Shown piece after piece: positions 42,262-43,194 of a stretch of 64,000 nt of DNA. A model generated the notes under the pieces. It searched no databases. It was not told the DNA's origin and saw only the letters and a program-made list of their open reading frames with translations. Positions within the stretch are counted from its first letter, which is position 1. Each line of letters begins with the position of its first letter. The DNA comes from Halorubrum cibi (GTDB lineage: Archaea; Halobacteriota; Halobacteria; Halobacteriales; Haloferacaceae): assembly GCF_900182635.1 (NCBI RefSeq), contig NZ_FXTD01000002.1:124001-188000 (forward strand). Reading direction: 5' to 3'. The translations under genes were made by a program, and so were the position numbers.

Positions 42262-42284
42262 TTTATATATTCCTCGGGGAATAT
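42262..42284 (+). promoter_or_regulatory. TATA box and RHH operator of the CopG-like gene
   Basis: TTTATATAT (42262-42270) lies about 25 nt before ATG 42291, as for a leaderless transcript. Overlapping its 3' end is a perfect inverted repeat ATATTCC-TCGG-GGAATAT (42267-42284). Ribbon-helix-helix repressors bind such short palindromes, and this one would block both TBP and the start site, so autorepression is likely. The rest of the 300-nt spacer back to rpl15e shows no further gene. Confidence 0.75.
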
Positions 42285-42290
42285 CTCGAT

Positions 42291-42479
42291 ATGCCCAAGA
42301 TAAGCGTCGAGATTCCTGACGAGCTGTTGGCGGACCTCGACGAGCACGTCGGTGACGACGGGAAGTTCGTGAACCGCAGCGACGCGGTCCGGGCGTCGAT
42401 CCGCAAGACGCTCGACACGCTCGACGAGATCGACGCTCGCCACGGCCGGCTGACCGACGAGGACGGTTCGGATGAGTAA
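42291..42479 (+). CDS. CopG-type ribbon-helix-helix regulator
   Basis: This 62-aa protein has the RHH fold: strand KISVEIPDELLADLDEHV, then GKFVNRSDAVRASIRKTLDTL. RHH dimers use the N-terminal strand to read DNA. ATG 42291 lies 7 nt after the ATATTCC/GGAATAT palindrome, pointing to autoregulation. The stop overlaps the start of the queuosine-precursor transporter by 8 nt, so both are made from one message and the regulator probably controls that transporter. Confidence 0.9.
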   Translation: MPKISVEIPDELLADLDEHVGDDGKFVNRSDAVRASIRKTLDTLDEIDARHGRLTDEDGSDE

Positions 42480-43194
42480 CCGATCCGCCGACTCCGGAGC
42501 CGAACGGCTCCTCGCGGTCGATCCCTTCTCTCGCCCCGCGGTGGCGGCGGTGGGACTGGTAGCGCTTTTCGTCACCGCACTCGTCACCGCACAGGTCACC
42601 GCCGCGAAGGTGCTCGCGCTGTCGCTGCCGGTCGCGCTACCCGTGGTCGGTCCACAGATACTGCTCCCCGGCGCGGCGTTAGCGTACGCGGTCACCTTCT
42701 TTGCGTCGGACTGTCTGGCCGAGCTGTACGGTCGCCGGACCGCCCAGGTCGTCGTGAACGTCGGCTTCGCGATGAACTTCGTCGTGCTCGCGTTAGTGTG
42801 GTCGACGCTCGCAGCGCCGGGCGTCGACCCCGAGGTCGCCGCGGCCTTCGGGACCGCGCTCGGGCCGACGACCAACATCGTCGCCGGGAGCCTGCTGGCG
42901 TACGTCGTCAGCCAGAACGTCGACGTCGTGCTGTTTCACGCGATCCGCGACCGGACAGGCTCCGCGAACCTCTGGCTCCGCAACCTCGCGTCGACGGCGA
43001 CGAGCCAGGCGATAGACACGGTCATCTTCGTGTCGATCGCGTTCCTCGTCGCCCCGACTCTCCTCGGCGTCGGGGACGCGCTGCCGCTCGCCGCGGTGGG
43101 CGCGCTGATCGTCGGCCAGTACCTCCTCAAACTGCTGATCGCCGTGCTCGACACCCCGTTCGTCTACCTCGTCGTCGGCGCGGTCCGGGAGTAG
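42472..43194 (+). CDS. Queuosine precursor transporter (YhhQ/VUT family)
   Basis: This 240-aa membrane protein has about six hydrophobic segments and the family blocks TAQVTAAKVLALSLP, LLPGAALAYAVTFFASDCLAELYGRR, SQNVDVVLFHAIRDRTG and LWLRNLASTATSQAIDTVIF. YhhQ proteins import 7-deazaguanine precursors (preQ0/preQ1) for tRNA modification; in archaea this would feed archaeosine. It overlaps the RHH regulator by 8 nt. Confidence 0.92.
   Translation: MSNRSADSGAERLLAVDPFSRPAVAAVGLVALFVTALVTAQVTAAKVLALSLPVALPVVGPQILLPGAALAYAVTFFASDCLAELYGRRTAQVVVNVGFAMNFVVLALVWSTLAAPGVDPEVAAAFGTALGPTTNIVAGSLLAYVVSQNVDVVLFHAIRDRTGSANLWLRNLASTATSQAIDTVIFVSIAFLVAPTLLGVGDALPLAAVGALIVGQYLLKLLIAVLDTPFVYLVVGAVRE

Follow-up and report, generated by a model that had tools for sequence, protein, structure and literature searches.

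An RHH protein of 62 aa, encoded directly upstream of a queuosine-precursor (preQ0) transporter in Halorubrum cibi, is quite probably a dedicated repressor of preQ0 supply. Together with its putative binding sites it points to a small, phylum-spanning regulon for this supply, in which RHH looks like a shared switch for preQ0 import and preQ0 synthesis in many archaea. Gene order, the operator, its conservation and positioning, and co-inheritance were read from sequence; from these we infer DNA binding, the direction of control and the signal.

The window (the whole stretch of 64,000 nt that was analysed) is a piece of contig C2 of a haloarchaeal chromosome, the genome comprising 3.18 Mb. The RHH gene lies at 42291-42479 on the plus strand and is followed on the same strand by the transporter gene (42472-43194, 240 aa, COG1738/YhhQ-type). 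The transporter ATG at 42472 precedes the RHH stop codon TAA (42477-42479), and the 8-nt gene overlap given in the preliminary description was thus confirmed (ATGAGTAA). The divergent gene upstream of RHH encodes ribosomal protein L15e. A TATA-like box, TTTATATA, was read from the sequence at 42262-42269 (plus strand, -29 to -22 from the RHH ATG), a position that fits a leaderless haloarchaeal promoter. The putative operator ATATTCC-TCGG-GGAATAT (ATATTCCTCGGGGAATAT, 42267-42284) consists of the AT-rich boxes ATATTCC and GGAATAT with centres 11 bp apart. It has 3 nt in common with the TATA-like box, as expected from the overlap described before. The 7-nt gap to the ATG at 42291 holds for the 16-bp core TATTC-N6-GAATA (42268-42283), whereas the 18-bp palindrome is separated from it by 6 nt (CTCGAT).

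The 62-aa protein scored 25.5 bits against Pfam RHH_1 (cut-off 20.5), and its orthologues adjoin transporter or que genes. Identity with CdrS was ruled out (NCBIfam NF058555, 27.6 bits, cut-off 100). The nearest named relatives are from Halorubrum species, with 97% and 95% identity, and the best sequence match in the PDB was a NikR (E 0.15, weak). An AlphaFold monomer (pLDDT 82) contained helices at 10-17 and 29-50, the N-terminal strand not being formed in the monomer; a Foldseek search with this model gave no match at E < 0.001. Among 114 distinct RHH sequences K3 and P9 were invariant, S5 occurred in 113, and position 7 was always E or D, a conservation that is consistent with a single conserved DNA-reading strand. 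Also invariant were H19, K25, D45, D48, R50 and R53, and H51 was present in 98/114. The second protein exceeded the cut-offs of TIGR00697 (queuosine precursor transporter, 146.1 bits, cut-off 50.95) and of Vut_1 (PF02592, 163.6 bits, cut-off 27.2). Transport of preQ0 by this protein is supported by genomic context: among the matches listed, five of the six high-quality genomes without a transporter had QueC, and the sixth (G060) was without TgtA.

TATTC-N6-GAATA with ≤1 mismatch was found once in the window (0.09 expected). The exact pattern occurred three times in the 3.18-Mb genome and a reversed control pattern did not occur. As judged from coordinates, all three exact sites end 7 nt before the start codon of an RHH paralogue; the three paralogues among the matches listed start at C2:166291 (the window copy), C7:106814 (minus) and C7:155930 (minus). 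Since the upstream sequences of the two C7 copies are near-identical, these were counted as a single event in addition to the window copy. A chance palindrome was ruled out by the window expectation, the genome control pattern and shuffled promoters. On C7, a second transporter is divergent from queD, with GAATATTCGGGGAATAT between the two. An AT-richer island of this contig (L188, G000:C7:146001-166000, GC 0.507) carries an RHH paralogue with operator, queC-queE-queD and the second transporter. It also encodes a DpdJ-like helicase and a DpdK-like protein, and is likely a 7-deazaguanine DNA-modification island. The same contig has TgtA-like (perhaps DpdA-like) matches at 183685-187156.

Conservation upstream of orthologous RHH-transporter pairs had been set beforehand as the point on which the proposed operator depends, and the element was found there. 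With half-sites chosen after viewing these promoters and the que-linked ones, a box pair at N6 (11-bp period, ≤1 mismatch) was present in 36/83 RHH-transporter promoters, and dinucleotide shuffles, performed for spacing 6 only, gave a mean of 0.72 and a maximum of 3. The next best box spacing in this set was 12, and 47/83 promoters were without a box pair at ≤1 mismatch. Another 53 distinct named RHH-transporter promoters, all new sequences but with close relatives among them, yielded 30 box pairs (shuffles 0.67). The pair was also present at 9/11 RHH genes associated with que genes or the own-genome island, and at 1/29 stand-alone RHH genes. GAATA on either strand was found in 45/83 transporter-linked versus 3/29 stand-alone RHH promoters. 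Because the sequences are related, none of these counts are independent. CGAACG on either strand was observed in 8/29 stand-alone promoters (e.g. L170, L177, L194) and in 0/83 transporter-linked ones.

Across relatives the AT-rich boxes, with centres 11 bp apart, were either inverted (TATTC/GAATA) or direct (TATTC/TATTC, GATAA/GATAA). The operator had been described as a palindrome; the inverted form does exist, but often two direct boxes stand in its place, so that the palindrome of the window represents one variant of a less strict element. Of the two boxes, the closest named relative, Halorubrum halodurans (L227), has kept one and lost the second. Transporters without an adjacent RHH gene (47 loci) had no clear box-pair peak. 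The strict 16-bp pattern was found at 152 sites in 90 of 146 genomes versus 28 sites in 23 genomes for the reversed control (among the matches listed). Most of the strict-pattern sites listed are away from RHH and que genes, and the strict pattern alone therefore does not define an order-wide regulon.

It is highly improbable that the boxes represent common promoter elements of haloarchaea (TATA, -10 region) which resemble an operator. They do lie between TATA and start, and stand-alone RHH promoters likewise have A+T peaks at -27 and -10; however, the stand-alone promoters show little or no A+T peak at box 1 (-23 to -20), N6 is sharply preferred over other spacings and dinucleotide shuffles, and the 3.18-Mb genome has just three exact sites, all at RHH genes.

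The position of the boxes bears on the direction of control. Among 40 promoters with a box pair within 45 nt, the second box ended 7 nt before the ATG in 26, and in most operator-bearing promoters the boxes are located at -23 to -8. This is downstream of TATA and ahead of the probable transcription start, where binding would block initiation, which argues for a repressor. That other positions are workable for RHH proteins is indicated by the available part of a study on CdrS, which for the most part binds 41-110 nt ahead of start sites (PMC8406309), and in part of the window's genus box pairs lie at about -50 (L006, L007, L008, L010). Both observations would suit an RHH that activates preQ0 supply, a reading which the blocking position of most boxes makes quite improbable.

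Order-wide (146 genomes), matches to the transporter were obtained in 131/146 genomes and to RHH in at least 137/146 (E up to 0.001); the RHH loci read are a fetched subset from the 137 genomes with an RHH match. RHH was encoded directly upstream of the transporter on the same strand in 83/130 transporter loci read. Its further neighbours are proteins which we take to be tatC2 and rlmE. Out of 80 named RHH loci, 62 had the transporter downstream, 14 only tatC2 and/or rlmE, one que genes and three none of these. In 22 of the 62, tatC2, RHH, transporter and rlmE all follow in this order within 3 kb, an arrangement which looks ancestral. It is present in Haloferax massiliensis and H. sulfurifontis with TATTCTCACGAGAATC before RHH. 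In Haloferax, a genetic model genus, the loci L289 and L290 carry RHH, operator and transporter. Upstream of RHH-less transporters in genus g12 of family f5 (L086, L095), stretches of the type GGGGAATCTC(G/C)GGGTATG were observed that have a short reading frame and may be remnants of a lost RHH gene.

RHH was also found with the genes of preQ0 synthesis, in nine fetched loci and in three further cases by coordinates (RHH-queC neighbours in G011, G037 and G048, among the matches listed). It is the first gene before queD-queE-queC in L172, L173, L174, L180, L184 and L200 (some queC beyond the stretch read) and before a partial queD in L178, precedes queC-queE in L185 and is divergent from queDEC in L186. 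In L185, AATACC direct repeats with an 11-bp period were observed upstream of RHH, ending at the start codon. Presence of RHH (E < 1e-15) and QueC (E < 1e-20) agreed in 9/10 genomes of genus g12, family f5 (among the matches listed). Where RHH is encoded elsewhere, a box pair was detected in 31/53 regions upstream of queD (60 que loci minus 7 without detectable queD; shuffles 1.05, maximum 4), with inverted boxes in 15/53. An exact site was present in 11/17 queD loci read from family f7, and in G140, G112, G145, G106, G079 and G128 the queD site is the sole exact site genome-wide (among the matches listed). Some queD promoters had extra peaks at spacings 3, 9 and 14, for which we have no explanation. 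The RHH-transporter pair had been described as a complete unit; as the synthesis operon appears as a second target in many genomes, the pair is not self-complete. In another genome of the window's genus, a short, diverged RHH copy with ~50% identity was observed directly beyond queC (G115:C1:1492988-1493134; L208, 6989-7135).

Outside the order, a profile built from 19 RHH proteins was run on 294 genomes of the phylum and retrieved relatives in 110/294, 59 of the positive genomes lying outside the order. We infer from the phylum that some of these are methanogens. In 22/23 genomes from six families outside the order, RHH lay at most 500 bp from QueC, the transporter or both (gaps 20-499 bp), and G163 has a single run RHH-queC-transporter. 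In family f19, also outside the order, RHH adjoined neither QueC nor the transporter in 36/36 genomes. TgtA (TIGR00432) was present in 121/122 high-quality genomes. The one exception, G060, is 99% complete, belongs to the same family as the window genome and was also without RHH, transporter and a QueC-level match (among the matches listed); it may therefore have lost archaeosine altogether. Being one loss event, this joint absence is suggestive and no proof. The link to preQ0 and archaeosine that had been proposed for the unit is supported by RHH beside queD, queE and queC, by the same operator at queD and by the absence of RHH together with TgtA in this one genome.

According to another reading, RHH controls nothing but its own level; the transporter and queDEC would be carried along by gene order, and a different RHH factor would occupy the boxes at queD. 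Family f19 would fit this, as would the presence of other RHH proteins in these genomes (weak matches, among those listed) and the stand-alone RHH genes, which keep the protein without the operator. We nevertheless consider it unlikely, because RHH and queD share these boxes, placed at the same distance, many families have RHH linked to the transporter or to que operons, and RHH is present or absent jointly with the pathway.

In the proposed mechanism of preQ0-supply repression, RHH would bind the two AT-rich boxes 11 bp apart between TATA box and start codon, probably with two dimers side by side on one helix face; the single helical turn between the boxes fits two cooperating RHH dimers, as in Arc-type repressors. 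Bound RHH would block its own gene and the co-transcribed preQ0 importer, and in other genomes also the preQ0-making queD-queE-queC operon. When the precursor (or its signal) runs short, repression would be lifted and more preQ0 imported or made for tRNA archaeosine. In strains with a Dpd-like island, preQ0 might additionally serve DNA modification. No recognised ligand domain was found in the RHH protein. Tentatively, RHH itself might sense preQ0, with the polar invariants outside the DNA-binding strand (H19, K25, D45, D48, R50, R53, and H51) as ligand site, although we regard this as rather doubtful. An RHH linked through gene order with the import or synthesis of preQ0 across the phylum offers a regulon that can be tested directly, access to the timing of archaeosine formation and possibly a minimal metabolite-sensing RHH protein.

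Arc/CopG-type RHH repressors bind as dimers to half-sites ~11 bp apart and are autoregulated. Their targets differ, and they are related to the window RHH via Pfam RHH_1 only. An archaeal regulator of 7-deazaguanine supply was not found in the literature searched, the coverage of which excluded most subscription papers. In the paper on the CARF protein MM_0565, queC and one archaeosine enzyme appear as table entries only. As far as the accessible text states, arcS, tgtA and queD of H. volcanii respond to perchlorate (PMC12175516). Like the window RHH, the haloarchaeal cell-division regulator CdrS is a short RHH protein whose gene immediately precedes one with which it is probably co-transcribed; according to the available part of PMC8406309, its targets and its more distant sites differ from those of the window RHH. 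COG1738, the family of the window transporter, includes the preQ0 transporter YhhQ of E. coli and has archaeal homologues, which suggests salvage; no archaeal regulator is described in the accessible part of this source (PMC5372724). The same part places COG1738 of different bacteria under preQ1 riboswitches, which also control que genes and yhhQ (PMC5372724). The likeness is feedback control of queuosine-precursor synthesis together with COG1738 transport genes. In the riboswitches, however, an RNA senses preQ1, whereas the archaeal system of the window consists of a 62-aa DNA-binding protein and DNA operators. If RHH does sense preQ0, a protein of ~60 residues would play in archaea the part that the preQ1 riboswitch plays in bacteria, throughout a phylum that comprises haloarchaea and their relatives.
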